From Bacillota bacterium (GTDB lineage Bacteria > Bacillota > Clostridia > Saccharofermentanales > Fastidiosipilaceae), in contig JASGUW010000240.1 in assembly GCA_030055235.1 (NCBI GenBank), positions 1 through 38,000 on the forward strand: a stretch of 38,000 bases of DNA. The letters are read 5' to 3'. Made by a program: the position numbers and the translations under genes. Below, one piece after another: positions 1 through 36,019 of this stretch. The notes below the pieces were generated by a model. That model searched no databases and was not told the DNA's origin. It saw only the letters and a list, made by a program, of their open reading frames with translations. Position 1 is the stretch's first letter. Each line of letters begins with the position of its first letter.

Positions 1-2823
1 CAGCTGCTCCACCGAAATGGTCTCGTCCGCCTTCGTCTCAGGAATCTCCTGATCCGCCGTCAGAGTGGCCACGTTCTTAATCGCCTGGCCGGCATCAATG
101 TCATCCTGGGTGACATAGTAGGTCTTGGTACCGGTAGTGGACTCACCGGGCGCCAGTGTCGTCTTCTTCAGCTCGACATCGCCCAGCTTGTCGTCGCTCA
201 CTTTGAGACCGGTCAACGTGACGTTACCCGTATTCTTCACCGTGTAGGTATAGGTCACCGTACCCGGCTTGGTGAAGGTCTTCGGGTCCGCCACCTTCGT
301 GATTTCGGCCGCAGGCGTCTGCTTCACCGTAATGGTCTCGTCCGCCTTCGTCTCAGGAATCTTCTGATCCGCCCTCAGAGTGGCCACGTTCTTGATCGCC
401 TTCCCGGCATCAATGTCAGCCTGGCTGACCTGATAGGTTTTGGCACCCGTAGCAGACTCGCCGGGCGCCAGTGTCGTCTTGTTCAACGTGACAGCACCCA
501 GCTTGTCGTCGCTCACTGTAAGACCGGTCAACGTGACATTGCCCGTGTTCGTTACCGTATAGGTGTAGATCACCGTACCCGGCTTGGTGAACAGCTTCTG
601 ATCTGCTTCCTTCGTGATCTGGGCTGCGGGCAGCTGCTCCACCGAAATGGTCTCGTCCGCCTTCGTCTCAGGAATCTCCTGATCCGCCGTCAGAGTGGCC
701 ACGTTCTGGATCGCCTTACCGGCGTCAATATCGGCCTGGCTGACCTTATAGGTTTTGGTCCCTGTGGCCGACTCACCGGGCGCCAGAGTCGTCTTGTTCA
801 ACGTGACTGTACCCAGCTTGTCGTCGCTCACCTGAAGACCGGTCAACGTAACATTGCCCGTGTTCGTGACTGTGTAGGTGTAGGTCACGGTACCCGGTTT
901 GGTGAACGTCGTCGGATCCGCCACTTTCGTGATCCTGGCCTTGGGCGTCTGCACCATCGTAATGGTCTCGTCCGCCTTCGTCTCAGGAATATTCTGATCC
1001 GCCCTCAGAGTGGCCACGTTCTTAATCGCCTTGCCGGCATCAATATCGGCCTGGGTGACGTTATAGGTTTTCGTACCGGTAGTAGACTCACCGGGTGCCA
1101 GTGTCGTCTTCTTCAGAGTGACCTCACCCAGCTTGTCGTCGTTCACCGTAAGACCGGTCAGGGTAACATTGCCCGTGTTCTTCACCGTGTAGGTATAGGT
1201 CACCGTACCCGGCTTCGTGAAGGTCTTCGGATCCGCCACCTTCGTGATCTCAGCTGCCGGCGTCTGCACCATGGTAATGGTCTCGTCCGCCTTCGTCTCA
1301 GGAAGCTCCTGATCCGCCGTCACAGTGGCCACGTTCTTGATCGCCTTGCCGGCATCGATGTCTGCCTGGCTGACATTGTAGGTTTTGGTACCGGTAGCAG
1401 AATCTCCGGGTTCCAGAATCGTCTTGTTCAGTTCTACCTCGCCCAGCTTGTCGTCGATCACCTTAAGACCTGTCAGCGTGACGTTGCCCGTGTTCGTGAC
1501 CGTATAGGTATAAGTCACCGTACCCGGCTTCGTGAAGGTCTTCGGATCCGCCACTTTCGTGATCTCGACCGCAGGCCCCGCCGTTGCCGTGATCGTCTCC
1601 TGTGCCTTTGTCTCGGGAATACTCTGATCCGCCTTCAAAGTGGCCACGTTCGTAATCGTTACACCGGCATTGATGTCGGTCTGGGTCACCTCATAAATTT
1701 TTGTTCCGGTAGTGGACTCACCGGGCGCAAGTGTCGTCTTCTTCAACGTGACAGCACCCAGCTTGTCATCGTTCACTTCAAGGCCAGTCAACGTGACATT
1801 GCCCGTATTCGTTACCGTATAGGTGTAGGTCACCGTACCCGGCTTCGTAAAGGTCTTCTGATCCGCCACCTTCGTGATCTTCGCAGCGGGCAGCTGCTCC
1901 ACCGTAACGGTCTCGTCCGCCTTCGTCTCAGGAATCTCCTGATCCGCCGTCAGAGTCGCCACGTTCTTGATTTCCTGGCCGGCATCAATATCGTCCTGGG
2001 TGACGTTATAAGTTTCCGTACCGGTAGTGGACTCACCAGGCGCCAGTGTCGTCTTCTTCAACGTGACAGCACCCAGCTTGTCGTCAATCACTTCAAGACC
2101 AGTCAACGTGACATTGCCCGTATTCTCCACCGTGTAGGTATAGGTCACCGTACCCGGCTTCGTGAACGTTGTCGGATCCGCCACCTTCGTAATCTTTGCC
2201 GCAGGCGTCTGCTGCACCGTAATGGTCTCATCCGCCTTCGTCTCAGGAATCTCCTGATTCGCCGTCAGGGTGGCCACGTTCTTGATATCCTTGCCGGCAT
2301 CAATATCGGCCTGGCTGACCTGATAGGTTTTGGTACCCGTAGCCGACTCACCGGGCGCCAGGGTCGTCTTGTTCAACGTGACGGCACCCAGCTTGTCGTC
2401 GTTCACCTGAAGACCGGTCAGCGTTACGTTGCCCGTATTCTCCACCGTGTAGGTGTAGGTCACCGTACCCGGCTTGCTGAAGGTCTTCGGATCCGCCACC
2501 TTCGTGATCGTGGCAGCAGGTGTCTGCTGGATCTTAACCGTCTCTTTCGCCTGTTTCTCAGGCAGCCCCTGATCCGTTGTCACCGTTGCGACATTCACGA
2601 TATCCTTGCCGGCATCAATATCGCCCTGGGTGACGTAATAGGTTTTGCTGCCCGTAGTGGACTCACCGGGCGCCAGAGTCGTCTTGCCCAACGTGACAGC
2701 ACCCAGTTTGTCGTCACTTACCTTGATACCTGTCAACGTGACATTGCCCGTATTCTTCACCGTATAGGTGTACGTCACCGTACCCGGCTTGGTGAAGGCC
2801 TGCAGGCTCGCCACCTTCGTGAT
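1..2823 (-). repeat. Nine tandem 315-bp coding repeats (DUF11/DUF7507-type units)
   Basis: The same boundary (the codons for ITKVA, read on the minus strand) recurs at 301, 616, 931, 1246, 1561, 1876, 2191, 2506 and 2821, always 315 bases apart with no insertion or deletion. Units are very similar in DNA; for example the 20 bases at 1 recur unchanged at 631. Each encodes a 105-residue beta-sandwich-like unit. The left-most unit is cut by the window edge. Confidence 0.93.
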
Positions 2824-5298
2824 CTCAATGGCACCCCACATGGCGTACAGGGCGTTGGTCTCGGGTTCAATGTTGTCGACCATGATATTGTCACCGGGCT
2901 GCAGCATCTGCCCGGAACCATCCGCACTGGTGTTCCAGCCCACCAGGGTATAGCCGGGATTGGAGATGCCGGTATCCCCGGACGTCAGCACCGTGTGCGT
3001 CGCGTTATTGGCCAGGGCAACACTGTGAGGACCACCCACACCACCGTTGGCATAGTACGTAAGACTGACAGGCTGCGGCACGGGTCCCCATTGGGCGACA
3101 AGTTTCGCATTTTCCTGCATCAGAAGGGATTCGCCCGGATAGTAGATTTTCCCGCTCGTATCCCCGTCCAGCTTCCAGCCCAGGAAGACCTTGTCTGTGT
3201 CAGGCGGCGTTACGCCGGCCGCGGATTTGACAACGGCCGATGTACCGGGAACGTAATCATGGCTGTCCACAACACTGCCGGTGCCACCATTCAGATCATA
3301 GGTGACGTTAAGCGGGTTTTGCTTCCAGACGGGATAAATGTGGGTATCCTCCATGACCGCGGGGAAGCTGTAGGGAACAAACTTGCCATCGGAATACCAG
3401 TACCAGCCAACCCAGTCAGCCTCTGTCAGGCCCGGCGGCGGCGGCGTGGGATAGGGACCAATGTTAGGAGCCACTGCGCCTGGAGAGACCGTCTCCGTGT
3501 GGATCACCGCGCTGTCCTGATTCTGAGCTTCATGGTAGTAGACCTTGTAGGTGGGCGGCGTCCACTTGGCATAGAGCAGGAGATCACCGGCGGGCATCGT
3601 CTTCCCGGCAAAACTATACGGATCTCCGACTAAGCCGTCGTTGTCATACCAGCCGGCGAAGACGTAGGTCATACCATCCTTTTCATAGGTGGTCTCCCCC
3701 ACGGTAAAGCCGTCGAGCGCCTTGTCAGAGATATCTGCCTCATAAAGAATAGACGGCAGAGTCGTAACAGGATCGCCGTTGTTCTTGTGGAACACAATGT
3801 CGTAGGAGTTGCGCGTGTAATAGATGGTACCCCGGTATTTATTATACTTGGTACCGTTATAGTAATAGTATCCATAGTATGCGAAGTCATCCCAGGTACC
3901 GACAAGTGTTGCCGTGAATCCCTTAATGGCGATCCCCGCTTCCTGAATATAACGTCTGTTTATACTGGCGTAGAAGACGTAGTCCGGATGAATCTCAATT
4001 GTGGTGTTCTTACCGTTGATTCGCTCACGATAGCGCGATGTATACTGGTGGTAGCCGCTGTAGGCGCCATACATGGTCAGATTCTTGTTGGGCATATCCG
4101 GCGCTTCGCCATAGGCCTCATTAAAGTTATTCTTATAGATAAAGATCAGGTTCCGCTTGTCGGCTATGTAGGCATTGTAGGGGACGGCCGTTGACTCGCC
4201 GTACTTAAGCTGTGTTGTGCTGTAGGTTATCCAGCTGTTATAAGAACCGGTGTGGTGCATGATCGTCAAGGTATATACCTTGCGGCTGTAGTAGACATTG
4301 CGTACGGTGGAGCCATCTGCCTTTATGTTGGTAGCGGCAGCAGCCGTTTTAACTGTGTTGAGTTCAAAGCCGGTGTAGTTTTGATTTGCGAAGGTTGCAT
4401 CCGTGCCCGTCAGCCCGGCATTGTCGACGACATCCACCGGGGTATAGCCGTCATCGTTGGGGTTTTCCTGCCAGTAGGCGACAATGTACGGCACCATCGC
4501 CGGCTGCCACACCGCATGCAGGGTAATGGCCCCGGTAACAGGTGTGGTGAAGTCATAGGCCAGACCACCCGCCGTCAATGACCAGTGGCTGAAGCTGTAG
4601 CCCATGCGCGTCGGGTCAGTGGGTTTGTTGGCGGTAGCGTTCGCCTCCACATGCTGCATCGGTACATAGGTGCCGCCGCCAGTGTCAAAGATCACCGTGT
4701 AACGGCCCATCAGCACCAGATAGAGATTGGTGTTGCTGTTAATCGGCTGCGTAAAATCAAAAGCCGGTCCGTTGATCGTAGCTGACCAGTGGCCAAACGT
4801 CCTGTCAGGAACCGTAATCACGGGCTGGACATCACTGGGATCGACCTGCTGTCCTGCGACCAGTTTCTTGGTTTTGATGATCTGGTAGTTTTCCACCCCA
4901 TCATCCGTGTTGTCATGCAGGAAATGCACATGGATGAGATCGGTATAGCGCGCCTCCACCGTGAAGGTCCCGCTTTCTTCAACCTGAATGGCTTTGGTGA
5001 AATCAAGGGGCTCGCTGCTGCTCTCAAGATACCATCCTGTGAAGTGCTTATTCGGCAGCTCCGGAGCGGCTGGTTCGAAAAGATATTCGCCGTTCTTCAC
5101 GATTTGCGTGCTGACTGTTGATCCGTTACTGACGAAGTTATAGGTATGGGTCTTGGTCACGGGGAGCAGGCCCATAAGAGAGTAGCCCCCGGAATAGTCT
5201 GTCGTAATCAGAGCCGCCTGAAGCTTAACAGGGACCAGGGAAAACAGAATCACAGCGCTTATGATCAGTGCCGTGAGATTCCGCAGTTGTTTTTTCAT
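1..5298 (-). CDS. Giant repeat surface protein (adhesin-like), 3' end outside window
   Basis: The frame is open from an ATG at 5298 to the left window edge (1,766 codons visible, no stop), so the gene is partial. The start fits because a Shine-Dalgarno-like GGAGGATAG lies just upstream and the protein opens with a signal peptide (MKKQLRN, a hydrophobic run, then LQA as a likely cleavage site). Residues about 40-820 hold several InlB B-type (Listeria/Bacteroides) repeats, seen as FTGWY, FGHWS, FSHWS, FAGWY and FLGWK followed by TLHAVW, LLYAKW or LVAQW. From residue about 826 come nine DUF11/DUF7507-type units of exactly 105 residues with the core PGTVTYTYTVxNTGNVTLTGL. The protein is therefore exported and probably wall-anchored, but the sorting signal would lie outside the window. 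It lies 99 bases downstream of the small B-repeat protein gene and probably shares its transcript. The specific ligand is unknown. Confidence 0.9.
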   Translation of the reverse strand, partial: MKKQLRNLTALIISAVILFSLVPVKLQAALITTDYSGGYSLMGLLPVTKTHTYNFVSNGSTVSTQIVKNGEYLFEPAAPELPNKHFTGWYLESSSEPLDFTKAIQVEESGTFTVEARYTDLIHVHFLHDNTDDGVENYQIIKTKKLVAGQQVDPSDVQPVITVPDRTFGHWSATINGPAFDFTQPINSNTNLYLVLMGRYTVIFDTGGGTYVPMQHVEANATANKPTDPTRMGYSFSHWSLTAGGLAYDFTTPVTGAITLHAVWQPAMVPYIVAYWQENPNDDGYTPVDVVDNAGLTGTDATFANQNYTGFELNTVKTAAAATNIKADGSTVRNVYYSRKVYTLTIMHHTGSYNSWITYSTTQLKYGESTAVPYNAYIADKRNLIFIYKNNFNEAYGEAPDMPNKNLTMYGAYSGYHQYTSRYRERINGKNTTIEIHPDYVFYASINRRYIQEAGIAIKGFTATLVGTWDDFAYYGYYYYNGTKYNKYRGTIYYTRNSYDIVFHKNNGDPVTTLPSILYEADISDKALDGFTVGETTYEKDGMTYVFAGWYDNDGLVGDPYSFAGKTMPAGDLLLYAKWTPPTYKVYYHEAQNQDSAVIHTETVSPGAVAPNIGPYPTPPPPGLTEADWVGWYWYSDGKFVPYSFPAVMEDTHIYPVWKQNPLNVTYDLNGGTGSVVDSHDYVPGTSAVVKSAAGVTPPDTDKVFLGWKLDGDTSGKIYYPGESLLMQENAKLVAQWGPVPQPVSLTYYANGGVGGPHSVALANNATHTVLTSGDTGISNPGYTLVGWNTSADGSGQMLQPGDNIMVDNIEPETNALYAMWGAIEITKVASLQAFTKPGTVTYTYTVKNTGNVTLTGIKVSDDKLGAVTLGKTTLAPGESTTGSKTYYVTQGDIDAGKDIVNVATVTTDQGLPEKQAKETVKIQQTPAATITKVADPKTFSKPGTVTYTYTVENTGNVTLTGLQVNDDKLGAVTLNKTTLAPGESATGTKTYQVSQADIDAGKDIKNVATLTANQEIPETKADETITVQQTPAAKITKVADPTTFTKPGTVTYTYTVENTGNVTLTGLEVIDDKLGAVTLKKTTLAPGESTTGTETYNVTQDDIDAGQEIKNVATLTADQEIPETKADETVTVEQLPAAKITKVADQKTFTKPGTVTYTYTVTNTGNVTLTGLEVNDDKLGAVTLKKTTLAPGESTTGTKIYEVTQTDINAGVTITNVATLKADQSIPETKAQETITATAGPAVEITKVADPKTFTKPGTVTYTYTVTNTGNVTLTGLKVIDDKLGEVELNKTILEPGDSATGTKTYNVSQADIDAGKAIKNVATVTADQELPETKADETITMVQTPAAEITKVADPKTFTKPGTVTYTYTVKNTGNVTLTGLTVNDDKLGEVTLKKTTLAPGESTTGTKTYNVTQADIDAGKAIKNVATLRADQNIPETKADETITMVQTPKARITKVADPTTFTKPGTVTYTYTVTNTGNVTLTGLQVSDDKLGTVTLNKTTLAPGESATGTKTYKVSQADIDAGKAIQNVATLTADQEIPETKADETISVEQLPAAQITKEADQKLFTKPGTVIYTYTVTNTGNVTLTGLTVSDDKLGAVTLNKTTLAPGESATGAKTYQVSQADIDAGKAIKNVATLRADQKIPETKADETITVKQTPAAEITKVADPKTFTKPGTVTYTYTVKNTGNVTLTGLKVSDDKLGDVELKKTTLAPGESTTGTKTYYVTQDDIDAGQAIKNVATLTADQEIPETKADETISVEQL

Positions 5299-5397: not shown

Positions 5398-6267
5398 CTA
5401 GTCCGCATCGATGATGTCGACCGCCACCCGGAAGTTCCAGTCAAGGTTTTCTTCGCTGAGGGTCAGCGTGTAGCTGTCGCCCTCGGCTCCGACATCCTGC
5501 CAGGAACCCGCTTCCGATTCTTTGACCTGCCAGCGGATGCGGTATTCAAGTCCCTCATAGCCGGCGAGCACGGCATGGAGCGTAACGGGATCCCCGATCT
5601 CGGGAACATCCTTCTCTCCCCAGCTGGCGTAGATGCTGACCGTTCGATCGGGATTTTTCCTGTCAACGTCTTCCTTCTCTGGAACATCCGTTTCCGCCTC
5701 CTGCGGCGGCACAGCGTCAGCCGGCTCTCCCGGAACCGGATTCGCTTCCTCTTCACCCCCGGGACACGTAGCAGACAGAAGATCCGTCCCGACGGTTTCG
5801 TCAGTTACAGGCAGTTCCGCATCCGCCCCGGAAGAAAGGCCTGCTTCCGGCGCAGTCGCTGACGGGTCCACGGTCGGATCCGGAGGGGTCGTTTCTGTTT
5901 CAGCAGGAGGGGCTGGGTCTGCCGCTTCGTAATAGCAGGGCATCAGATAGAGCGCTTCGCTGACGGGACGGTCAAAGAGGTACGGCTCATTCACATTTCC
6001 CTCAAGCGCTGCATCCACCTGATACCAGTGAGAAAACTCCATGCCGTCCAGCTCAGGTGCGGCAGGAGGCAGCGGTATTTCGTCGTCGGCCAGTTCTACC
6101 ACCTCAAGGAGTTCACCATCTGCCCGGTAATACGAGCAGCTGAAGCGAGTTTGCGGTTTAGCTTCCGGCTCTGATCCCGCGCGGAGCGCACCGGTCGAAT
6201 GGGTCAGCAACACCAGTCCGATAAGCAGCGCCAGGTAAACAAAAACCGTTCTTTTTGTTAGTTTCAT
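5398..6267 (-). CDS. Small membrane-anchored or secreted B-repeat/Ig-like protein
   Basis: The 289-residue protein starts at the ATG at 6267, which has a good ribosome binding site (AGGAGG about 7 bases upstream). A longer reading from 6315 would precede this site and is unlikely. Residues 1-30 form a signal peptide or signal anchor (MKLTKR, then a hydrophobic run). Residues about 40-115 resemble one InlB B-type repeat (YYRADGELLEVV ... FSHWYQVD ... LYLMPCYYE). Residues about 116-205 are rich in Pro, Glu, Thr and Ala and look like a flexible linker. Residues about 207-289 resemble a bacterial Ig-like domain (GDPVTLHAVLAG ... YRIRWQV ... SYTLTLSEENLDW). There is no sortase motif and the protein ends abruptly after the domain. 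It is the first gene before the giant repeat protein and probably part of the same surface locus. Function is unknown. Confidence 0.82.
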   Translation of the reverse strand: MKLTKRTVFVYLALLIGLVLLTHSTGALRAGSEPEAKPQTRFSCSYYRADGELLEVVELADDEIPLPPAAPELDGMEFSHWYQVDAALEGNVNEPYLFDRPVSEALYLMPCYYEAADPAPPAETETTPPDPTVDPSATAPEAGLSSGADAELPVTDETVGTDLLSATCPGGEEEANPVPGEPADAVPPQEAETDVPEKEDVDRKNPDRTVSIYASWGEKDVPEIGDPVTLHAVLAGYEGLEYRIRWQVKESEAGSWQDVGAEGDSYTLTLSEENLDWNFRVAVDIIDAD

Positions 6268-6569
6268 TCGATCAACCTCCTGAAGAATGCTTTGCCCTTT
6301 CGGGCGCGCCTGCACCGGTTCTTAGACGGCGGCAATCGACAAACAGGAAACAGGCATTTCCCTAGAGTGAAGTGCAGATTTAAACGAACCTGCAAACCGC
6401 CTCATTCAGCGACATTCGTCGCAAATCAGGCAGTCAATCAATTGTGACAATTTAAATTTAGGGACTAAAAAGAAGCGTTACAAGATGTGAACCCGGAATT
6501 CACACACGCATAACAAACAAAAGGGTGGGTATTGATTCAAATTTGGATAATTTTGTAGCAAATATGTTC
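6268..6569. other. Intergenic region with candidate operator
   Basis: No gene was seen in these 302 bases. The region must hold the promoter for the minus-strand surface genes that follow, but no convincing -35/-10 pair could be picked. An inverted repeat TGTGAA-N7-TTCACA lies at 6486-6504 and is a plausible operator for an adjacent regulator. Confidence 0.45.
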
Positions 6570-7778
6570 TCAGAGGTTAGCATATTTAAGAGGCGGCAAC
6601 GAAATATCCCCGCGATAAATGGAGTCCAGATAGTGATATACGGCTCCGGCGAGCTCTTCCTGGACCACTTCATTCGCAACCCTTGTCAGATGGTAGCGTT
6701 TATTCACGTTGGTGCGAATCAGCATGCTGTGTTTGGGCTCGCTGTAGATCATGATCTTGGGAATATCCAGCTTCAGAGACTTTTCACTGCCTAGAAACAG
6801 GGTTCCCTTATCCTGCAGAAAGCGGTGCGCCCAGTCCATATCCTTCAGAAAGTCATTTTTGTATTTCTCAAGCTGCATCATGCCGCCATGGACTTTGACG
6901 ATTCCCTGCTCATAGGCGTCAGAAACCGCTTTCGCCGAGACGATATATCTGGCATTTTCGATTTTTTCTCCCACCAGAAAGGTGTGAAACATGCCCCAGA
7001 TCTCATACTCCGCTCTGTCGATGGCATGCTCTGTGTACATTTTCTCTCTTAGTTCCTGGCTGCCCATATAAAGATAAATATATGGTACATATCCATAGGC
7101 ACGGACCTGTCCGCCTTTTTCTTCCAGAACCTGCCTGAAGTCCGAAAACTCTTCTCTCAGGCACATGATCTTCCTGCGTTTCGCGAAGCTTTCCTGCAGC
7201 TCTTCCAAAGCCAGCTGCCCCAGCCTTTGATTCATGGAGAAACACAGACCTTCCAGATTACCGTTTTTACAAAACGTTACCCCATTAAAGGTGTCTTCAT
7301 ATGAAAAGAGCGCGGTGTCCTTCTCCTCCCCACGGTCCATGATCTCGATATCAAAGGCCGGTATCTGGGCAATCAGACGCAGGAGATTGTGGATATACAG
7401 ATTGGAGCGCTTAGGGTCGCGACGATAGTCAATAAGTTTCTCATTGAGCACGAAACGCAGTTGAATACGAATGGGTCGATCGATACGAAAATTCGTGCGT
7501 TCACAGAAATACGACCAGATATTGTCGTTGAAATCATCGTCATAATAGACTGAGTAATCTTTTTCTCCCTTCGCAATCTGCTCCAGCATAAGCTGAACCA
7601 CCGGGAAGAATTCTCTGCTTTCTTCAATCCTCACCCGGCTGTCCGAGCTGGCGAAGATCTCTTCCCAAATGCGAAGCATGCCACCCGCTTCCGGCATTCC
7701 CAGAGAGGGTATATTGCCAAGCGAGTCCAGGTAATCATCTTCTACGTGTAAGATAAATAAGCCCTTTCGCCTGTTCAT
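6570..7778 (-). CDS. HTH-less paralogue of the tandem regulator family
   Basis: The 402-residue protein belongs to the same unrecognised family as the next two genes. Shared landmarks run in order: a YGYVPYIYLYMGSQELR block, then AEYEIWGMFHTFL, IENARYIVSAKAV, GIVKVHGGMMQLE and KIMIYSEPKHS. The paralogues carry equivalents such as EYEMWGRLQTVL, IRKARILVPRTT and TAIIYSDRQNS. It lacks the N-terminal helix-turn-helix of the other two and begins at about the point where their second region starts. The start at 7778 has AGGTGA upstream, and the 108 bases before it are too few to hold a missing domain. It is last in the three-gene set. It could be a partner or modulator of the two DNA-binding paralogues, but that is inference. 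Confidence 0.85.
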   Translation of the reverse strand: MNRRKGLFILHVEDDYLDSLGNIPSLGMPEAGGMLRIWEEIFASSDSRVRIEESREFFPVVQLMLEQIAKGEKDYSVYYDDDFNDNIWSYFCERTNFRIDRPIRIQLRFVLNEKLIDYRRDPKRSNLYIHNLLRLIAQIPAFDIEIMDRGEEKDTALFSYEDTFNGVTFCKNGNLEGLCFSMNQRLGQLALEELQESFAKRRKIMCLREEFSDFRQVLEEKGGQVRAYGYVPYIYLYMGSQELREKMYTEHAIDRAEYEIWGMFHTFLVGEKIENARYIVSAKAVSDAYEQGIVKVHGGMMQLEKYKNDFLKDMDWAHRFLQDKGTLFLGSEKSLKLDIPKIMIYSEPKHSMLIRTNVNKRYHLTRVANEVVQEELAGAVYHYLDSIYRGDISLPPLKYANL

Positions 7779-7886
7779 ACTTCACCTGCCCATTTATTAT
7801 TGCCTCTGCATAATAAGCCAGAATGCCAGTCTTAATACAGAGGTGAATCCTTTTTTCACAACTACTTCACGGCACATCAAAAACTA

Positions 7887-9293
7887 TTATAGGTCAAAAT
7901 GATTACAGCTAAGCGAACACAGCTCCGTCAGGTAAGAATGAATAACTTCGGCCAGAGCGGGATGGACAACAGGATAAAACAGGCGCTTTCTGAGATAGGC
8001 ATGAATCTGGTTCATCGGCAGATAAAAGGCAGTGCGTCCATCGGAGTAAATGGCTGTCCTGGGAAGACGGCTGCTGTTCGCGGCTTTTCCCGGAATAAGC
8101 AGGAGTTCTCCATGGGCCTCTTTGGCCTCCAGATGCTTCGTCATGTCGGCCCTGTAGGCAGCCAGTTCCTCACCCTCCAGCCGTAAATAGCCCTCACTGC
8201 ATTTCACCAGTCCTTCCTCTGTGGTGCTCTCGATGGCTGTCTCCGGTATGAGGAGGGTGGCGTGCCGTATTTTCTCCTCCCCGCCAAGGGCTGTTTGCTG
8301 CGGCCAGATATCGTAATCGGCCTGTGAAATCCGCCGCTTCGCGTGAAGAAGGTCCCGCAGTCCAGGGCCCGCCAGATGCAAAGGCATAACAGGCAGGTAA
8401 AAAAGAGGCCGACGGAGTGGCTCTTCCTGGCTCAGCCAGTGACTGAAGCCCTCAATGGAGGGCTCCATACGAATCAGGCAGGGCAGGCCGGTAAAGATTT
8501 CCTCTAGCTTTCTCTTCCCTTTTGCCAGCACCTGAGGATGCTGCGTGACAAAGACCTTCGGAACGCCCTCAAAGGCTGATGGCGTTGCGTAGGCGAAGAA
8601 AATGTTTTCGAAAACACAGCGAAAGCCCGCCAGTTCATCATGGAGATAGGGCACGAATTCTGCAAAGGGCAGCAGAGAGACCAGACGGAAGAAATAGTGC
8701 AGCTTTCGCAGAGACAGATTTCCCTCATTGGCTAAAAAGGTCGAATCTACGGTGAAGTGGAAGCGATATTTGTTGTTGCTCGTGTAAAGAAAGTGCAGAT
8801 TGTCCAGAAACTCTGCCGTGATCTCATCCAGCATGGCTCCATGAATATGGATATCGCGGGTAATCTCCATGCTGGTAGTCTCTCTGTCAAGGGTGTCAAT
8901 GAGATAGGCCATAAACTCATGAATCCCATCCATGCTCATGGAAACATTGGCCGCCGGAAGCATTTCCTCTCTGGGATAGACTTCAAGATAACTGGTCTTC
9001 AGAGCATCATCCAGGAGAGACTGGAGCAGATCCATATCGCTGAATGCGAAACGCTCTACCTTAAGGCGGGGAAACAGTTCCGCCAGCTCGTAAAAGTCTG
9101 TCTCAGCCATTTTCTCGGAAAAATACCGTGCCAGCTGTGGCCTGACTTCACTCCAGGTCTCCATTGAGGGCAGCAGTTTGTCGTTATACCATTTGCTGAC
9201 ATAGGAGCGATCATAGGCAATGGTTCTGGCCAGGTCGGATATGGATGAACGGGTCATATCCATGAGCAGACGGAAAAAGTCGCCAAAATTCAT
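7887..9293 (-). CDS. Putative HTH transcriptional regulator, tandem paralogue 2
   Basis: The 468-residue protein starts at 9293 with GGAGG upstream, 12 bases after the stop of the preceding paralogue, so the two are probably co-transcribed. Residues about 15-45 (SSISDLARTIAYDRSYVSKWYND) look like a Cro/XRE-type helix-turn-helix and match the same segment of the upstream paralogue (SSVQEFANAIMYERSYISKW). The remaining 400 residues form the family-specific region, with FYLPVMPLHLAG, DYDIWPQQTAL, IRHATLLIPETA, EGLVKCSEGYLRLEG and RTAIYSDGRTAF. No transmembrane segment or known ligand-binding motif was seen. Its position between two surface-protein loci suggests control of those genes. The family itself is not one I can name. 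Confidence 0.85.
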   Translation of the reverse strand: MNFGDFFRLLMDMTRSSISDLARTIAYDRSYVSKWYNDKLLPSMETWSEVRPQLARYFSEKMAETDFYELAELFPRLKVERFAFSDMDLLQSLLDDALKTSYLEVYPREEMLPAANVSMSMDGIHEFMAYLIDTLDRETTSMEITRDIHIHGAMLDEITAEFLDNLHFLYTSNNKYRFHFTVDSTFLANEGNLSLRKLHYFFRLVSLLPFAEFVPYLHDELAGFRCVFENIFFAYATPSAFEGVPKVFVTQHPQVLAKGKRKLEEIFTGLPCLIRMEPSIEGFSHWLSQEEPLRRPLFYLPVMPLHLAGPGLRDLLHAKRRISQADYDIWPQQTALGGEEKIRHATLLIPETAIESTTEEGLVKCSEGYLRLEGEELAAYRADMTKHLEAKEAHGELLLIPGKAANSSRLPRTAIYSDGRTAFYLPMNQIHAYLRKRLFYPVVHPALAEVIHSYLTELCSLSCNHFDL

Positions 9294-9305
9294 GTCGAGC
9301 CTCCG

Positions 9306-10718
9306 CTACCTCAAAAAGTCATTCTGCTCAATGTTCATGACTGCCTCCAGCCAATCGTAAACAAGAGCAGTAAAAAGCGAATTCAGCGACTGGTACATGA
9401 TATTTTCTGTTTTATATGGTGCAAACTGATTAAAATGCAGTGCGAAGCTGTTCTGCCGATCGCTGTAGATAATGGCTGTCGGCAGGTACCGGAAATTCGT
9501 AACCGTCTCATTTTCCAGAATGACGATGTTTTCCCGGGGAAGAATATTGAACAAGTCATCCATATATCTTCTGAATTCCCTGCCAAAGAGCTGCTGACCC
9601 CCGTTCGACTTATAAATCCAGCCACGGGTAAAGGTGTCGTTAAAAGTCGTCCTGGGAACCAGAATCCTGGCCTTCCTGATCTCAGGTCGTGATAAAACCG
9701 TCTGCAGCCTGCCCCACATCTCATACTCTTTCATGGTGATGTAGTGCTCCTGGAGCTGTTGCTCCCTGAATTCATTGGAAGCAAAGTAGAGATACATGCG
9801 GGGAACATAGAGGATGGGGGTGGTGTCCGTAACAGTCTCGCCTTTCTGGGCGAAAATCTTCCCAAAGTCCTCCTGCAGAGACCAGACAGGCTGTTTTGCC
9901 TCGAAAAAGCTGCCCAGGCGCTGACAGCTTTCGCTGACACTTGTTTCGTCCTCAAGCACGAAAAGGACATCCGGAACGCCATCTTCCAGCTCAAAGCCCC
10001 AGGCCGCCATACTCCCATTTTTGGCCATCTGGACCAGACTGGCCGTCTCTCCGGCGGACTGGAAGATCTCCAGATTAAGAAAGGGCAGGGCTGAAAGCAG
10101 ATGAAAGTACAGGGTGATGTATTTCAGGCTGTCGCCTCTTTCTCTGCTCAGCCTGTCCAGATCCAGTGTTGACTTCACGCGAAGGCTGCCGGGATTCATG
10201 TAGTTTACGTACACTCTGTCCAGAATCTCATCGTTGAAACAGCGGACTATGTCGCCCATATAGTAAAAACAGGCATCCTCAGAGGATGTGTGAGTATCCT
10301 GTGTCAGAAAACTGATCAGGTAATCCACCACATTTCTGACGCCCGTATAGGTAACGGCAAGGTTTTTTTCCGGATCACGCTTGCGTATTTCATCCCTGTC
10401 GATGGTCCGGGCATAGGACTTTTCCAGAAGGGCCGAGATGAGCTCCAGCTTCGACCTGGTCACATCCTCCTGAACCGTCATTTGAATATAGGGATACTGT
10501 ATCGCCAGATACGCCATGTCATGGCCCGTGAGCCGGCTGTCCAGGAAACGGGCTATGCTGCCCTTTGTCTCCCGCCAGCCGGATAGGGACGGCAGCGCGC
10601 TGTCGCTCAACCACTTTGAAATGTAGGAGCGCTCATACATGATGGCATTCGCGAATTCCTGAACACTTGATCCGGAGGCACCCAGCAGGATGTCCAAAAT
10701 CTCATTGAACATCATCAT
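9306..10718 (-). CDS. Putative HTH transcriptional regulator, tandem paralogue 1
   Basis: The 470-residue protein is the first of the trio. Three ATGs in a row (10718, 10715, 10712) follow a GGAGG, so the exact start is uncertain by two codons. Residues about 14-45 carry a Cro/XRE-like helix-turn-helix (SVQEFANAIMYERSYISKWLSD). The large C-terminal region shares conserved blocks with both paralogues: LYVPRMYLYFASNEFR, EYEMWGRLQTVL, IRKARILVPRTTF, GWIYKSNGGQQLFG and TAIIYSDRQNSF. It is transcribed divergently from the Trp T-box/trpBA unit, with about 220 bases between them. It probably autoregulates the cluster or senses a signal through the large domain; this is inferred from architecture only. 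Confidence 0.86.
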   Translation of the reverse strand: MMMFNEILDILLGASGSSVQEFANAIMYERSYISKWLSDSALPSLSGWRETKGSIARFLDSRLTGHDMAYLAIQYPYIQMTVQEDVTRSKLELISALLEKSYARTIDRDEIRKRDPEKNLAVTYTGVRNVVDYLISFLTQDTHTSSEDACFYYMGDIVRCFNDEILDRVYVNYMNPGSLRVKSTLDLDRLSRERGDSLKYITLYFHLLSALPFLNLEIFQSAGETASLVQMAKNGSMAAWGFELEDGVPDVLFVLEDETSVSESCQRLGSFFEAKQPVWSLQEDFGKIFAQKGETVTDTTPILYVPRMYLYFASNEFREQQLQEHYITMKEYEMWGRLQTVLSRPEIRKARILVPRTTFNDTFTRGWIYKSNGGQQLFGREFRRYMDDLFNILPRENIVILENETVTNFRYLPTAIIYSDRQNSFALHFNQFAPYKTENIMYQSLNSLFTALVYDWLEAVMNIEQNDFLR

Positions 10719-10944: not shown

Positions 10945-11234
10945 CAGCAAACCGTTGAGACGGAGATAAAGGTGATCAAAGCGCCCCCAGAGAGCCTGTC
11001 GTGCTGGAAGCAGGCGGTAAGCGGATCATCAAATGGACCGTTGAGGGCGTGGATAAAAGGGGCGCAGCAGCCCCCCCGAGTCTTCCACGACGTCAGGACA
11101 GGCGTCATCTGTCCAGGATATGCCAGTATCCATGAAGCGCACGGGATCGTCTGTGATTCTTCCGTGAATAGAGGTGGCACCGCGGGTTCAGTCGGACTCG
11201 TCCTCACAAGAACAGCTTGAGGACGAGTTTTTTT
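10945..11234 (+). ncRNA. T-box riboswitch, tryptophan-specific
   Basis: The canonical T-box antiterminator element GAGGTGGCACCGCGGG lies at 11171-11186, followed by the terminator hairpin. Stem I can be folded: ACGG at 10960-10963 pairs with CCGT just after the specifier loop, and GGTGATC at 10971-10977 pairs with GATCATC before it. The distal AGAGAGC and GCTGGAAGC elements of stem I are also visible (about 10990-11012). The specifier loop reads AAATGGACC, with TGG (Trp codon) at 11034-11036. Uncharged tRNA-Trp would stabilise the antiterminator and allow transcription of trpB and trpA, which fits the downstream genes exactly. Confidence 0.95.
11196..11234 (+). terminator. T-box intrinsic terminator
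   Basis: ACTCGTCCTCA (11196-11206) pairs perfectly with TGAGGACGAGT (11218-11228) and is followed by a run of T. It is the OFF state of the Trp T-box. Confidence 0.93.
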
Positions 11235-11282
11235 ATGTCCTCTCCGCCGTTACGCATAACAGCCAGAAAGGAAGACTCCTGC

Positions 11283-12494
11283 ATGAGCCTGATATCCTCT
11301 CCCGCCACGAGCCGCCCTGGTCGCTTCGGCGTCCACGGCGGTCAGTATGTCCCTGAGACGCTGATGCCCGCCCTTGCCGAGCTGGAGGCCGCCTATCTCC
11401 ACTACCGCCAGGACCCCGACTTCCAGGCGGAGCTGCTTGGCCTGCAGCAGGACTACGCCGGCCGCCCCTCCCGCCTCTACTTCGCCCGCCGGCTGACTCA
11501 GGCCCTCGGCGGCGCCCGCATCTACCTCAAGCGTGAAGATATGAACCACTCCGGCTCCCATAAGATCAACAATGTTCTGGGACAGGCCCTGCTGGCCAGC
11601 CGCATGGGAAAAAAGCGCCTCATTGCGGAGACCGGAGCCGGCATGCACGGTGTGGCGACGGCCACCGCTGCCGCCCTGCTTGGCATGGAATGTGAGATCT
11701 ATATGGGCGCGAAAGACATCGAGCGTCAGGCGCTGAACGTCAACAAGATGCGTCTGCTCGGTGCCGCGGTACACGCTGTTCACAGTGGCACGGCGACGCT
11801 GAAAGATGCCGTTAATGAGACCATGCGGGAGTGGACCCGCCGTCTTGAGGACACCCACTACTGTCTGGGTTCAGTGATGGGGCCGCACCCCTTCCCCACC
11901 CTGGTCCGTGACTTTCAGGCTGTTATTTCACGCGAAATCCGCAGCCAGATCCTGGCGGCAGAAGGACGTCTGCCGGATGCCGTACTTGCCTGCGTCGGCG
12001 GTGGCTCGAATGCCATCGGTGCCTTCTATGACTTCATACCCGACACCCAGGTCCGCCTCATCGGCTGCGAGGCCGCCGGGCGCGGCGTCGACTCCTTCGA
12101 CACCGCCGCCACCCTGACCGTCGGGAAGCCCGGCATCTTCCACGGCATGCGCTCCCTCTTCTGCCAGGACGATCAGGGACAGATTGCTCCGGTCTATTCG
12201 ATTTCCGCCGGCCTGGATTACCCCGGCATCGGCCCCGAACATGCCTGGCTCAGAGACAGCGGCCGCGCCGAATATGTGGCTGTGACCGACGACGAAGCAG
12301 TCCACGCCTTCGGCTATCTGCCCCGTCTTGAGGGCATCATCCCCGCCATCGAAAGCTCCCACGCCCTCGCCTACGCACTTCGCCTGGCCCCGACACTCGA
12401 CAGTAATCAGCTGCTGGTCGTCAATCTGTCCGGCCGCGGCGACAAGGACGTCGCCGCCATCGCGCGCTATCGCGGAGAGGAGATCGAAGAATGA
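11283..12494 (+). CDS. trpB: Tryptophan synthase beta subunit
   Basis: The protein of 403 residues joins indole and L-serine to make tryptophan, using pyridoxal phosphate. The start at 11283 ([10 protein letters not shown]) is chosen because an earlier ATG at 11217 lies inside the T-box terminator. The PLP lysine is K94 in GSHKINN, the catalytic Glu is E116 (E109 in E. coli numbering), the phosphate-binding loop GGGSN is at 239-243, and the C-terminal SGRGDKD is present. One oddity is GAGMHG where the family usually has GAGQHG (M121 for E. coli Q114). Otherwise the subunit looks catalytically intact. It overlaps trpA by four bases (ATGA), so the two are translationally coupled, and it is controlled by the Trp T-box. 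No other trp genes are present here. Confidence 0.97.
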
Positions 12495-13261
12495 AACTTT
12501 ATGATATCTTTACGTCCGATCGTCCTGCCCTCATAGCCTATCTCAGCTGCGGCGATCCCGACCTGGAAACCACACTGAAGCTGGCCCGCGTCCTCGCCGC
12601 CGAAGGCTGTGACCTGATCCAGCTGGGTATCCCCTTCTCGGATCCGGTTGCCGAAGGCCCCATTATTGAGGCCGCACAACTGCGTGCCCTGGAAGCCGGC
12701 ACAGCAGACACCGACTTAGTCTTCGACCTTGTCCGTCGCCTCCGTGAAGGTGAGGATGGCGAGCCTCAGGTCACTGTTCCTGTCGTCATCATGACCTACG
12801 CCAATACCGTCTTCGCCCATGGCATCGAGCGCTGGGCCAGGGACGCCTCTGCTGTCGGCATCTGTGGCCTCATCCTGCCCGACGTGCCGCTCGAGGAGCG
12901 TCAGGAATTCTCTGTCCCACTGGCGGCCCACGGCATTGAGCTCATCCCCCTGATCGCACTGACGGCACTGGATCGCGTCAGCCGCATCGCGCAGCAGACG
13001 GCCGACCTCAGCTTCGTCCAGCTCATCGCTCCAGCTGCTGAAGTCAAAGGGCAGCTGGCTGCCATCCGCTCTGCCGCCCCGGAACTCGCCGTTGCCGTGA
13101 GTCTGGAGACGGTGAGCGTGGCTCAGGCCCTGGCCGCCGGAGCCGACGCCATCGTAGCCGCAAGCACTGTGGTGGAACTTGTCAGCATACATGGCCGCCA
13201 GGCAACAGAGCCCCTTGGCGCGCACATCCGCGCAGTTCTGGCCCAGATCTCGGAAGCTTGA
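12491..13261 (+). CDS. trpA: Tryptophan synthase alpha subunit, catalytic residues altered
   Basis: This 256-residue TIM-barrel protein of normal TrpA length would release indole from indole-3-glycerol phosphate. TrpA features such as [29 protein letters not shown] and LPDVPLEE identify it. The catalytic pair is not intact: E. coli E49 is Q44 here (DLIQLGIP, codon CAG) and D60 is E55 (PVAEGP, codon GAA). The flexible active-site loop that normally reads SRxGVTG is [14 protein letters not shown] (174-187), and the phosphate-binding GFGIS and SGSA segments read AVSLE and AASTV. The reading frame is otherwise full length. It may bind and activate TrpB for use of free indole rather than make indole itself; that is inference. 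Confidence 0.93.
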
Positions 13262-15519: not shown

Positions 15520-18500
15520 CTACCGCTCGTCGTTCGCGTCCAGGAATCCCTTCTTCCGCAGCAGCACCAGCACCGCACCAGCCGACAGAAGGATCAGGCC
15601 AAGCCACAGACTCCAAGGGCTATCGTCTCTGCCGGTTCTCGGTACCGGTGTAGGCTCGTTCGGATCCGGAACCCTGGGCGTGATGACTTCATCCGTCGGC
15701 GGGTTCTCCGGCGGTTCTTCTCCCTCAATGAGCTCGGTCACGATGACCTTGTTCAGCACACTGCCAGCGACTGCATCCGCCTCTGTCACGGTATAGGTGT
15801 AGGTCAGAACCCAGGTCTCTCCCACATCCAGGATGCCGTTCGCAGCAACGCTTTCCACCAGCTTCATGTTGTCCAGGGCCACCAGGCTGTCTTCCACGAC
15901 GAGGTCGCCAATCGCCACCTCACCCGTGTTCGTCACGGTAATCGTGTAGTGCAGGATATCGCCGGCTTTGTAGAATTCTGTCTCAATGACTTCCTTCACA
16001 ACCGTGTAGCTGGACTTCGGAACTGTTTCCTCATCCTCTTCCGGATTCTCAGGATCGGCCGGGTCAGTCACTGTCACCTTGTTCAGCACGTGGCCGGCGG
16101 CGGCATCCGCTTCCGTCATGGTGTAGGAATAGGTCAGGGTCCAGGTTTCATCGACATCCAGAATACCGTTCTCCAGGCCGTCCTCCACAAGCTCCATCTC
16201 TTCGAAGTCTGCCAGGCTGTCCTCAATCTCAAGGTCATGGATATCGAGTTCGCCTGTATTGCTCACCGTAACCGTGTAATGGATCGTATCACCGGCTCTG
16301 CAGAAGCAGGCCTCATCTGCCTCCTTGGTGACCGTGTAACTCGGCTTGAAGACTTCTTCCTCATCTTCGACGGGCTTATCCGGATCGGCGGGATTTGTCA
16401 CCGTCACCCGGTTCAGCACGCTGCCTCTTGTCACGTCTTCTTCCGTGACCTCATAGCTGTACGTCAGAGTCCAGACTTCACCCACGTCCAGATCGCCATT
16501 CGTATTCACGGACTCCGTGAGTTCCATGTCGGCGAAATCGACCAGGCTGTCTTTAACGGTGAGGCCTTCTACTGTGACATCTTCCAAATTCGTCACGGTC
16601 ACAGTGTAGTGAATCGTATCCCCTGCGTTGAAGTATCTGTCTTCCGTTGCGGTCTTCTCGACCAGGTAACGGGGTTTGACAACCACAACCTCATCTTCAG
16701 GCGGCGGATTCTCAGGATCCTCGTCTGGAATGTCGGGGTTCCACGCCTTGACGGCATTCTTCACAAAGCCGGCGTCCACGTCTTCCTGGGTCACCGCATA
16801 GGTGTACTTGTAGGTCCAGGTCTCGCCGACCTCAAGATCGCCGTCTGCATTCATAGACTCCTCTGGCGTGACCTTTTTCGTCAGCTCTGGAACCAGGCTA
16901 TCCTCCACCTCTACGTCTTTCAGCGTCACGTTGCCCGTGTTCGTCACGACAATCTCATACTCGATCTCATCGCCAACCACGGTATATTTCTCCGTCTTGG
17001 CCGTCTTCTTGATCGACATACCGGGGTTTTGCTCGCCTGGTACATCAACCTCATCCTCAGGGGGCGGATTCTCAGGATCGCCGTCCGGAATGTCGGGGTT
17101 CGTCACCTTAACGGCGTTCTTCACGAAACCGGCATCCATGTCTTCCTGGGTCACCTCATAGGTGTACGTGTAGGTCCAGGTCTCACCGACCTCAAGATAG
17201 CCGTCTGCATTTATCGACTCCACAAGCTCGGCTTCTGTCTCCAGATCCACATCAAGGCTGTCTGTAACCTTAACGTCTTTCAGTGTCACGTTGCCCGTGT
17301 TCGTGACAACAATCGTATATTCGATCTTGTCACCAGCCGCCGTGAACTTCGTCTCCGGAGCTACCGTTTTCTTAACTGTCATTCCGGGATTCTGCTCGCC
17401 GGGTACATCAACCTCATCCTCAGGAGGCGGGTTGTTGGGGTCGTCATCCGGGAAGTTGGGGCTCGTCGCCTTAACGGCGTTCCTCACGAAGCCAGCGTCC
17501 ATGTCCGCCTGGGTCACCTCATAGGTGTACGTGTAGGTCCAGGTCTCACCGACTTCAAGATCGCCGTCCGGGTTCATCGACTCCACAAGCTCAGCTTCTG
17601 TCTCCAGATCCACATCAAGGCTGTCAGTCACCACAAGCTTTTTCAGTGTCACGTTGCCCGTGTTCGTCACGACAATCTCATACTCGATCTCATCGCCAGC
17701 CGCCGTAAATGTATCCGTCTTGGCCGTCTTCTTGATCGTCATACCGGGATTCTGCTCACCGGGTACCTCGACCTCATCCTCCGGCGGTGGATTGTTGGGA
17801 TTTTCGACCGGGATGTCGGGGTTCCACGCCTTGACAGCGTTCTTTACAAAGCCGGCGTCCATGTCCGCCTGGGTCACCTCATAGGTGTACGTATAAGTCC
17901 AGGTCTCACCGACTTCAAGCTCGCCGTCTGCATTTATCGACTCTTCGAGCGTGGCCTTTGTCTTCAGGTCTGGAACAAGGCTGTCCGTCACCTCAACGCC
18001 TTTCAGCGTCACGTTGCCCGTGTTCGTGACTACAACCTCATACTCGATCTCATCACCAGCCGCCGTAAAGGTATCCGTCTTGGCTGTCTTCTTGATCGTC
18101 ATACCGGGGGCATAGTTGTTCGTCAGATCTACGGTGTACTCGTTCTTGCTGGCTTCCATCACAGGCTGCGTGATCGCCATCGGAGTATAGGGTTCGTAGC
18201 CCGTCTCCTCAATCGTGTACACGATCAGTTCGCCCGCGGCGTATTTCGGAAGATCCGTGAACTGATAGGTCCAGGCTGCGATCTCACCTGTGGCATCTGC
18301 TACCCCGTCCAGCGTGACGGACTTGACCACAGTTGCGCCATTCTTCACATGGATGACCAGCGTCGCGGGACGCTTGCCATCCCGGTTTTCGGCATCAGCC
18401 CAGGTCTTTTTACCGCTGATCTTGATCACTTCAGGTGTGTAGCTGTTCTTCAGATCTACGGTGTACTCGTTCTTGGCAGCATCCATCACCGGCTGCGTGA

Positions 18501-21500
18501 TCGTGGCCGGAGTATAAGGATCGTAGCCCGTCTCCTCAATCGTGTACCCGATCAGGTCGCCCGCGGCGTACTTCGGAAGATCCGTGAACTGATACGTCCA
18601 GGCTGCGATCTCACCCGTTTCGCCGGCGGCAGCGTCTGCCGTGCCGTCCAGCGTGACGGACTTGACCACAGTTGCGCCATTCTTCACATTGACGACCAGC
18701 GTCGCAGGACGCTTGCCATCCTGGTTTTCGGAATCATCCCAGGTCTTTTTACCGCTGATCCTGATCACTTCAGGTGTGTAGCTGTTCTTCAGGTCTACCG
18801 TATACGCATTCTTGCTGGCTTCCATCACCGGCTGCGTGATCGCGGTCGGAGTATAGGGGTCGTAACCCGTCTCCTCAATCGTGTACTTGATCAGTTCGCC
18901 AGCGGCGTATTTCGGAAGATCTGTGAACTGATAGGTCCAGGCTGCAATCTCACCTGTGGCGTTGGCTGCAGCGTCAGCTGTACCGTCCAGCGTCACCGTC
19001 TTGACCACAGTTTCGCCGTTCTTCACATTGACGACCAGCGTCGCGGGACGCTTGCCATCCTGGTCTTCGGCATCATTCCAGGTTTTCGTGCCGCTGATCT
19101 TGATCACATCAGGCGTGTAGCTGTTCTTCAGATTTACCGTGTACTCGTTCTTGCTGGCCTCCATCACCGGCTGCGTGATCGTCGGTGTGTAGGGATCGTA
19201 ACCGGTCTCCGCAATTGTGTAGGAAATCAATTTCCCGGCGGCATATTTCGGAAGGTCGGTGAACTGATAGGTCCAGGCTGCGATCTCGCCCGTTTTGTCG
19301 GCGGCAGCGTCTGCCGTGCCGTCCAGCGTAACGGACTTGACCACGATGTCACCATTCTTCACTTGAACGACCAGCGTCGCAGGACGCCTGCGATCCTGAT
19401 CCTCGGCATCATCCCAGGTCTTTTTACCGCTGATCTTGATCACTTCAGGCGTGTAGCTGTTCTTCAGATCTACCGTGTACTCGTCCTTGCTGGCTTCCAT
19501 CACCGGCTGCGTAATTGTGGTCGGAGTGTAAGGAGCGTAGCCCGTCTCCTCAATCGTATAGGAAATCAGTACACCGGCGGCGTATTTCGGAAGACCCGTG
19601 AACTGATAGGTCCAGGCAGCGGTCTCACCTGTGGAATCTGCTACCCCGTCCAGCGTGACGGACTTGACCACAGTTTCGCCGTTCTTCACATTGACGACCA
19701 GCTGCGCAGGACGCTTGCCATCCTGGTCTTCGGCATCATTCCAGGTCTTCGTACCGCTGATCCTGATCACCTCAGGGGTGTACTTGTTCATCAGATCGAC
19801 GGTGTACTCGTTCTTTCCGGCTTCCATCACCGGCTGCGTAATCGTCGGCGTGTAGGGATCGTAACCGGTCTCCGCAATCGTGTAGGAAATCAATTTCCCG
19901 GCGGCATATTTAGGAAGGCCGGTGAACTGATACTTCCAGGGTGCAACCTCGCCGGTGGCATTCGCAGCAGCATCAGCTGTGCCGTCCAGCGTCACCTCCT
20001 TGACTACGATGTCGCCATTCTTCACCTGGACGACCAGTGTCAGAGGACGCTTGCGATCCCGGTTCCCGGCATCATCCCAGCTCTTCGCACCGCTGATCGT
20101 GATCACTTCAGGTGTGTAGCTGTTCTTCAGATTTACGGTGTACTCGTCCTTGCTGGCTTCCATCACCGGCTGCGCAATCGTGGTCGGAGTGTAAGGAGCG
20201 TAGCCCGTCTCCTCAATCGTATAGGAAATCAGTACACCGGCGGCGTATTTCGGAAGACCCGTGAACTGATAGGTCCAGGCTGCGATCTCACCCGTTGCGT
20301 CAGCGGCAGCGTCAGCTACCCCGTCCAGCGTGACGGACTTGACCACAGTCTCGCCGTTCTTCACATTGACGACCAGCGTCGCGGGACGCTTGCCATCCTG
20401 ATTCCCGGCATCATCCCAGGTCTTTTTACCGCTGATCTTGATCGTGTCTGGTGTATAGCTGTTCTTCAGATTTACCGTGTACTCGTTCTTTCCGGCTTCC
20501 ATCACCGGTTGCGTGATCGTCGGTGTGTAGGGATCGTAACCGGTCTCCGCGATCGTGTAGGAAATCAATTTGCCGTCGGCATATTTCGGAAGGCCGGTGA
20601 ACTGATAGGTCCAGGCTGCGATCTCGCCCGTTTCGTTGGCTGCAGCGTCAGCTGTGCCGTCCAGCGTGACGGACTTGACTACGATGTCGCCATTTTTCAC
20701 CTGGACGACCAGTGTCAGAGGACGCCTGCGATCCCGGTTATCGTCATCATCCCAGCTCTTCTGGCCGCTGATCGTGATCACTTCAGGTGTGTAGCTGTTC
20801 TTCAGATTTACGGTGTACGCGTTCTTGCTGGCTTCCATCACCGGCTGCGTGATCGCGGTCGGAGTATAGGGTTCGTAACCCGTCTCTGCAATCTCGTATT
20901 GAACCAGTTCCCCCTTAAGAAATTTCGGAAGATCCATGAACTGATACATCCAGTCTGCTATCTCGCCCGTTGCGCCAGCTCCCGCGTCGGGGACGCCGTC
21001 CAGCGTCACCGACTTGACCACGCTGTCGCCCTTTTTCACCTGGACGACCAGCGTCCCGGGACGCTTGCCATCCTGATTCCCGGCATCATCCCAGGTCTTC
21101 GTACCATAAATCTTGATCCGGGCATATAGACCCGAGTCGTTGCATACGGATGCATAGAGCGAGCTTGCCATTTCATCCTTGGGCGGCATCTTGATGCCCG
21201 TGATGATTGTAGACTCTAATTTGCCACCCGCACTGAACTCTGGCGCCGCGTCGGAGTCGGTATAGTCATTGCCTACATTTTGTGGAGATGCTGTAAATAC
21301 ATCAATATTGTCAGTTGTAAAGCGTACGCCAAAGTTACCCGCCGGCAGGCCGACAAACTTGTATTTACCAGGCTCATAGTCCGATATGGTTCCGGTTGCC
21401 AGATCAAGCTGTTTGCCCAGTGGGATAACCGCAGGATTCTCATATGAATCCATGGTTACGTTATATGTGCCATCCGGGAACTCCATCAACAGGCTTACAG

Positions 21501-23277: not shown

Positions 23278-23285
23278 CAGGGCAT

Positions 23286-26093: not shown

Positions 26094-26963
26094 TGTTAAC
26101 TCCTCCTCTTTCCCTATCAGGCAGATGGATTGGGGGCATACTGTGCGAATACGACGGAGCACCTCGTCAGACAATTACAGCTCGTATTCACCGGTTCTTC
26201 GTGATTTATAACATAAAACGGAAATATATAATGATCTCTTGGGCGAACCTGCAGAGACAGCGCCCAGGAATAAAGCCGCAGGCGGCTGACACTCTTCCTC
26301 TGTATCCAGGTCATGAGCGGAGCGCAGACGAAGCGACACGTCGCTTTGAGAAGAATTCACAAAATGACATCTTCTTTGCTTCCTCCCGTCAGCAGCATTG
26401 CCAAAGAATAACCATCTATATATAAAGCCTGTCCCGCAAGTGCTACCAGGCGGTAGAACACACGTGCACACGGAGCCGATCCGTACACGACCGACCAGGC
26501 AGTCTGGACCACTCCCCGCTCTCAGCGCTAAGCTTCGGTGGAGCTCATCTCTTCATGCGTCGTCCCAGGGAATCTACACAAGTATGTATACGCAACAATG
26601 ATCAGCATCCAAAAGAAAGCCGGAACAGCCACATCGTGATTGCCATTTTCGATTATATAAGCACAAACATGTTAACTCAAGTTAACTATGCTTCCATTGT
26701 CATTTTGAGGAAGCGCGTGACTTCAGTTTTCCGACCCTCAGAACTCCAGCAGATCTGATTCCGGCTATCTATTCATCATATCGTAGTAACCTGCTTACGT
26801 CCTATCTATGTATTTGGACGTAGGATTGCAGCTCATAGCAGCAGGAAAGATCAACGTCCCTGTCACCGGCTTTATAGTCAGCACCTGGCTCTTCACATCA
26901 AGAAGAGGAGCCGTCTCCATTGAGACAGCTCCTCTTTTACACAATGACCTCTCTGGAATCAGA
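26094..26963. other. Non-coding region between the wall protein and the catabolic operon
   Basis: No credible gene was found in 870 bases. It must include the promoter of the minus-strand wall protein; an AT-rich stretch near 26205-26235 is the likeliest place, but no clear -35/-10 pair stands out. A 16-base palindrome GTTAACT-CA-AGTTAAC is at 26671-26686, and a looser inverted repeat (TACGTCC ... GGACGTA) spans 26796-26822. Confidence 0.5.
26903..26938 (-). terminator. Intrinsic terminator at the end of the catabolic operon
   Basis: AAGAGGAGC (26903-26911) pairs with GCTCCTCTT (26928-26936). An inner GTCTC/GAGAC stem and a CATT loop complete the hairpin. T-rich flanks occur on both sides, so it may work in both directions. 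It lies 25 bases past the last operon gene. Confidence 0.75.
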
Positions 26964-29776: not shown

Positions 29777-29780
29777 GCTA

Positions 29781-32115: not shown

Positions 32116-32116
32116 G

Positions 32117-34606: not shown

Positions 34607-34618
34607 AGAGCTGACTCC

Positions 34619-36016: not shown

Positions 36017-36019
36017 GGC

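Follow-up and report, generated by a model that had tools for sequence, protein, structure and literature searches.

The position of three adjacent, related open reading frames (ORFs) beside genes for large surface proteins raises the question of whether they control the expression of these proteins and, if so, through which DNA site. The three ORFs, here termed A, B and C, are located in a stretch of 38,000 nt (the window) that represents one contig of the 3.42-Mb draft genome G000 of a Clostridia bacterium. Their positions are listed in Table 1, together with those of the proposed regulatory sites and targets.

Table 1. Regulator genes, candidate operators, predicted promoters and likely target genes in the window.
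Feature	Position	Strand	Description
Regulator A	9306-10718	minus	470 aa; Cro/C1-type helix-turn-helix (HTH; about aa 1-62), predicted PLD-like/TrmB-type domain (aa 118-280) and putative second alpha/beta half (about aa 300-461); AlphaFold2 (AF2) pLDDT 81
Regulator B	7887-9293	minus	468 aa; architecture as A; 12 bp after A
C	6570-7778	minus	402 aa; paralogue of A/B without HTH; own short N-terminus kept in orthologues; 108 bp after B
Candidate operator 1	7843-7859	minus	GTGAAAAAAGGATTCAC; upstream of C; same dyad before C in G049 and G025
Candidate operator 2	6487-6503	minus	GTGAATTCCGGGTTCAC; upstream of the surface-protein operon, between C and the operon
Predicted promoter of C	7811-7839	minus	-35-like 7834-7839 (TGTATT, poor); -10-like about 7811-7816 (TTATTA)
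Predicted surface-operon promoter	6455-6483	minus	-35 6478-6483 (TTGTAA), 17 bp, -10 6455-6460 (TAAATT)
Secreted/surface protein, likely target	5398-6267	minus	289 aa; signal-peptide-like start; RBS-like aggagg before ATG 6267
Giant surface protein, likely target	1-5298	minus	at least 1766 aa; Flg_new and DUF7507/DUF11 repeats; runs off contig

The homology of the three ORFs goes beyond chance in every pairwise comparison (A/B, E=5e-44; A/C, E=3e-22; B/C, E=4e-15), and G000 contains no close copies of them besides the trio itself. The HTH turn is near-identical between A and B (DRSYISKW-type), whereas the HTH is truly absent from C: in-frame stops close the frame upstream, and the C orthologues in two other genomes (G049 and G025) have the identical start point. 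The original prediction of three paralogous genes, two with an HTH and one that has lost it, is borne out by these data. Of the motifs it described as common to all three, the first is present in A, B and C in the form (E/D)Y(E/D)xW, but IRxAxxLVPxT is found in A, loosely in B and not in C (IENARYIVSAK), and the third block, IYSD in A and B, reads IYSE in C.

When 188 genomes of the order were searched with a profile, the A-B-C order was found again in G049 and G025, and an A-B pair without C in G044; comparable similarity to the trio was found nowhere else among these genomes. Together with G000, this gives four carrier genomes, two of them of one genus; the named relatives bearing the trio are Clostridiales/Clostridiaceae metagenome genomes. 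In a single alignment, orthologues share 42-70% identity and paralogues 17-25%, and a maximum-likelihood tree places A, B and C in separate clades of 100% bootstrap each, with stems longer than the tips. Because the three clades are fully separated on long stems, the triplication and the loss of the HTH are judged from the tree to predate the split of two families. The local, recent event of tandem duplication plus domain loss that had originally been envisaged is ruled out by the three clades and the recurring A-B-C order; by the same evidence, the triplication is an old one that has been kept 1:1:1.

In keeping with the initial designation as an unnamed family, searches of Pfam, NCBIfam, PHROGs, PADLOC and PDB sequences yielded no match covering A, B or C. 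In many Bacillota, searches at the level of the class and the phylum matched proteins of about 480-570 aa through their N-terminal HTHs. With the HTH removed, the C-terminal regions of the trio and of this wider family proved homologous in an HHalign profile-profile comparison (E=2e-12, 372 columns). These sequence comparisons place the trio as a divergent branch within a larger, unnamed family of Bacillota proteins of about 500 aa, whose members (e.g., loci L019-L041) have both the HTH and the homologous C-terminal region in common with it. Distant members occur as single genes in the loci seen, whereas the trio forms its own long-stemmed branch, and no HTH-less member was seen outside the trio. 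The distant members that were scanned show no named C-terminal domain in Pfam or NCBIfam; the HTH_3 cut-off was reached in one of them and narrowly missed in others. A double-HTH variant also exists, as another member of the broad family in G000 (contig C184, about 2165-2731; 668-aa frame) has two HTH matches and locus L031 likewise carries two HTHs. A relationship to phage or toxin families, which would have pointed away from a local control module, was not found: PADLOC gave no match, the weak PHROGs matches were confined to the HTH region, and a phage or plasmid origin was rejected, as no phage, plasmid or viral-contig relative was detected.

Structure prediction, suggested along with the original prediction, was successful for A (mean pLDDT 81) but not for C, for which AF2 gave a pLDDT of 35 from three sequences, so that the fold of C rests on homology to A. 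In Foldseek searches with A, the best match was TrmBL2 (E 3e-5), followed by phosphatidylserine synthase, TrmB and Nuc-type PLDs, while the N-terminus matched the structures of Cro/C1 HTHs such as C.BclI, HigA and SinR. VIA-align yielded moderate Z scores of 8-9.5 for aa 118-280 against TrmB and PLD structures (for TrmB, Z 8.7-9.1 over 121-124 residues, rmsd 3.4). A conserved H.K motif, as in the catalytic HKD motif (HxKx4D), was not found across 27 family members. A is predicted to consist of a Cro/C1 HTH and a TrmB/TrmBL2-type phospholipase-D-like (PLD-like) domain without HKD motif. After aa 300, the order of strands and helices resembles that of the preceding PLD-like part, from which we infer a possible second PLD-like half; the sequence evidence for a repeat of two sensor halves is weak (E=0.004 over 80 columns).

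In TrmB and TrmBL2 of Archaea (PF01978 and PF11495; PMC4158304), an N-terminal HTH is likewise joined by a helix to a PLD-like regulatory domain. The HTH of the TrmB family is winged, whereas that of A is of the Cro/C1 type; A further has a longer C-terminal region resembling a second alpha/beta half, and A and B come as a trio with an HTH-less member. With a limit of E=1, Pfam detected neither PF01978 nor PF11495 in any of the trio proteins or in the distant members, and the literature searched contained no paper describing a PLD-like sensor joined to a Cro/C1 HTH. A Cro/C1 HTH followed by a large sensor domain, as in A and B, is also the arrangement of the RRNPP regulators (Rgg, ComR, PlcR and PrgX), several of which bind dyads near -35. 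The RRNPP sensor, however, is built of TPR helices, while that of A is predicted to be alpha/beta and PLD-like and has no Pfam TPR match. No conserved short ORF with RBS, as expected for a signal peptide or pheromone, was found in the intergenic gaps of four genomes.

Can the genomic context indicate what the trio controls? The surface operon follows directly after C and runs from the ATG at 6267 past base 1. A, in contrast, is parted from a giant adhesin gene (15520-23277) by trpBA and an AAA ATPase gene; the description of the trio as lying between surface loci is right in a loose sense. A 962-aa protein that matches Big_4 weakly is encoded ahead of the giant Cna_B/DUF7507 adhesin (2585 aa, minus strand; together window 15520-26174), and a 1726-aa ORF antisense to the adhesin (15949-21129, plus strand) is probably a shadow ORF. 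A T-box leader (10946-11208, plus strand; 83.3 bits, E 1.6e-18, slightly below the Rfam gathering score) precedes trpBA (11217-13261) and has its intergenic space in common with the start of A. Genes for a 2-oxo acid dehydrogenase complex (E1, E2 and lipoamide dehydrogenase) and two class II aldolase-like genes make up a catabolic cluster on the minus strand (28484-37369). At 37594-38000, a 92-bp unit is repeated in tandem (4.4 copies, 91% alike); the repeat gives rise to three shifted 90-aa ORFs and runs off the contig end.

In relatives, the surroundings differ. The trio neighbours in G049 and G044 are housekeeping genes (citrate synthase/aconitase and RapZ/MurB/pyrG genes), and distant family members adjoin transport, chemoreceptor and catabolic genes. 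The same-genus genome G001 has 33 Cna_B matches without a trio, and A-B is present in G044 without any Cna_B. An adhesin link drawn from gene neighbourhood or Cna_B co-occurrence is therefore unsupported, and the location between surface loci, originally offered as evidence, is weak alone. C of G025 is succeeded by a signal peptidase I gene, after which the contig ends (L017, 1-573); elsewhere in that genome, a Cna_B pilin-like protein is followed by a sortase-like gene (L069, 277-1924), and the two loci may be one operon split by the assembly. By gene position, homologues of the trio lie mainly far from surface genes, a result named at the outset as one that would refute the proposal, but the link to surface genes survives via a DNA site.

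This site is a 17-bp perfect dyad, GTGAA-N7-TTCAC, which is found ahead of C in every genome that carries C (G000, G049 and G025), within DNA that has otherwise diverged among them. Its stringent form, GTGAAN6ATTCAC, has two matches in the whole of G000 (3.42 Mb), one before C and one before the adjoining surface operon. By chance, a genome this large would hold about 1.6 matches if its base composition were even; the count is ordinary, but the placement is not. G049 exhibits three stringent dyads, found before C, before a 1232-aa Cna_B adhesin gene and inside a gene; the last (C3:9405) was taken as chance and rejected as an operator. The adhesin gene of G049 is situated on another contig than the trio and is preceded, at a distance of 280 bp, by tandem dyads spaced 40 bp apart. 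Between C and the signal peptidase I gene of G025 lie tandem dyads with one mismatch each, spaced 39 bp apart; the chance of one such site in this interval is about 0.9%. No dyad and no shared inverted repeat or k-mer was found upstream of A, and the other adhesin loci of G000 (26174 and C65) have no dyad. A genome search allowing two mismatches was too lax to use.

Six dyads share one arrangement relative to promoter-like hexamers: dyad-3bp-(-35)-17bp-(-10). At that offset, the joint hexamer score of the six promoter regions is 42 of 72, and none of 5000 shuffles was as good; the -35 boxes before C are poor. On balance, we favour the reading that A, B and C together make up a conserved regulatory module of the one-component type, which controls the surface-protein operon and C via the dyad. 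A and B would be cytoplasmic DNA-binding proteins whose Cro/C1-type HTH dimer reads the dyad, and binding of the dyad by A/B is quite likely. Given the near-identical HTH turn, A and B may both be able to recognise one and the same dyad, and the retention of A, B and the dyad but not of C in G044 suits A/B rather than C as the binders. There is equally good reason to regard the surface genes as the target. The C-terminal region of A/B, a catalytically dead PLD-like fold as in the regulatory part of TrmB, would sense a ligand, which is likely as well.

The promoters of C and of the surface-protein (adhesin) operon are the two that A and/or B would most likely switch on. Class II activators, which contact sigma, usually sit immediately before the -35 hexamer, and activation is considered probable because the dyad occupies this very position, 3 bp upstream of -35. 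The dyads end before the -35 hexamer without overlapping the core promoter, and the poor -35 before C suits an activator-dependent promoter. Both features speak against the main rival to activation, namely that A/B repress the surface operon and C until a ligand frees them from the dyad, with C acting as an anti-repressor that titrates A/B in a SinR/SinI-like manner. Repression is unlikely, although Cro/C1 HTH proteins often are repressors, an HTH-less paralogue controlled by the same operator could naturally serve as an anti-repressor, and the tandem dyads could support cooperative repression.

Under the favoured reading of A/B as activators, feedback is the simplest role for C, since it retains the sensor region, is devoid of the HTH and seems to be co-expressed with the surface operon. 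C would be made together with the surface proteins and would form mixed oligomers with A/B or compete for the ligand, resulting in a damped switch (negative feedback). This role as an antagonist is a possibility somewhat short of an even chance. The SinR/SinI/SlrR system of Bacillus subtilis, in which a DNA-binding regulator of surface and matrix genes has a related partner that does not bind DNA, resembles A/B and C in logic only: SinI is a short antagonist, whereas C comprises 402 aa with the full sensor region, and there is no sequence relation beyond the HTH fold.

The distribution of the dyad across the 188 genomes of the order bears on whether it belongs to the trio at all. The tandem-dyad pattern is found only in G025 and G049, the two genomes from which it was built. 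A pattern of dyad, TTG and TANNNT occurs only in G000, G049, G044 and G170; the site in G170 coincides in part with an ORF start and was taken as chance. G044, which carries A-B, had been left out of pattern building; at its site, another dyad lies 40 bp upstream and the dyad-promoter spacing is identical. This site lies in a 96-bp block conserved with G049, with diverged flanks and apart from the flanking conserved genes, and the two sites are orthologous rather than independent. In G044, a P-type ATPase gene is located about 330 bp past the dyad promoter, and the adhesin is missing at that locus. The contrast between carriers (4/4) and other genomes (1/184; p=1e-7) is inflated because three of the four carriers defined the patterns, G044 alone giving p of about 0.01. 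The dyad is nearly confined to carrier genomes.

This near-confinement makes it rather improbable that the dyad is read by another regulator, global or two-component, which controls C and the surface genes while the trio has its targets elsewhere. Such a regulator would explain the lack of a dyad upstream of A, and the G049 and G044 sites are close to a response regulator and a histidine kinase gene, which are possible true regulators there. The sites in G000 and G025, however, have no adjoining two-component genes, and the half-site spacing is unlike that of CRP and Rex sites. It is more improbable still that the trio is an ordinary metabolic regulator set lying near adhesin genes by chance: the housekeeping neighbours, the Cna_B-rich genome without a trio and the catabolic surroundings of distant members would fit, but the dyad precedes the surface operon in G000, the Cna_B adhesin gene in G049 and the signal peptidase I gene in G025.

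A control link between the trio and surface genes, as first proposed, is thus backed by the operator-like dyad shared with the surface operon here and with surface or secretion genes in relatives, whereas gene order elsewhere speaks against it. More tentatively, the proteins may represent a new one-component family with a Cro/C1 HTH and a dead, perhaps double, PLD-like sensor, which in one order of Clostridia would have become a three-part adhesin switch, with an anciently HTH-less paralogue placed under the adhesin's operator as a feedback antagonist. For surface-protein control in uncultured Clostridia, this provides a concrete, testable circuit of regulators, operator and targets. It also brings to light a wide, unnamed family of Bacillota regulators whose predicted sensor fold resembles that of archaeal TrmB, and the conserved HTH-less partner raises the question of how paralogous antagonists arise and persist.
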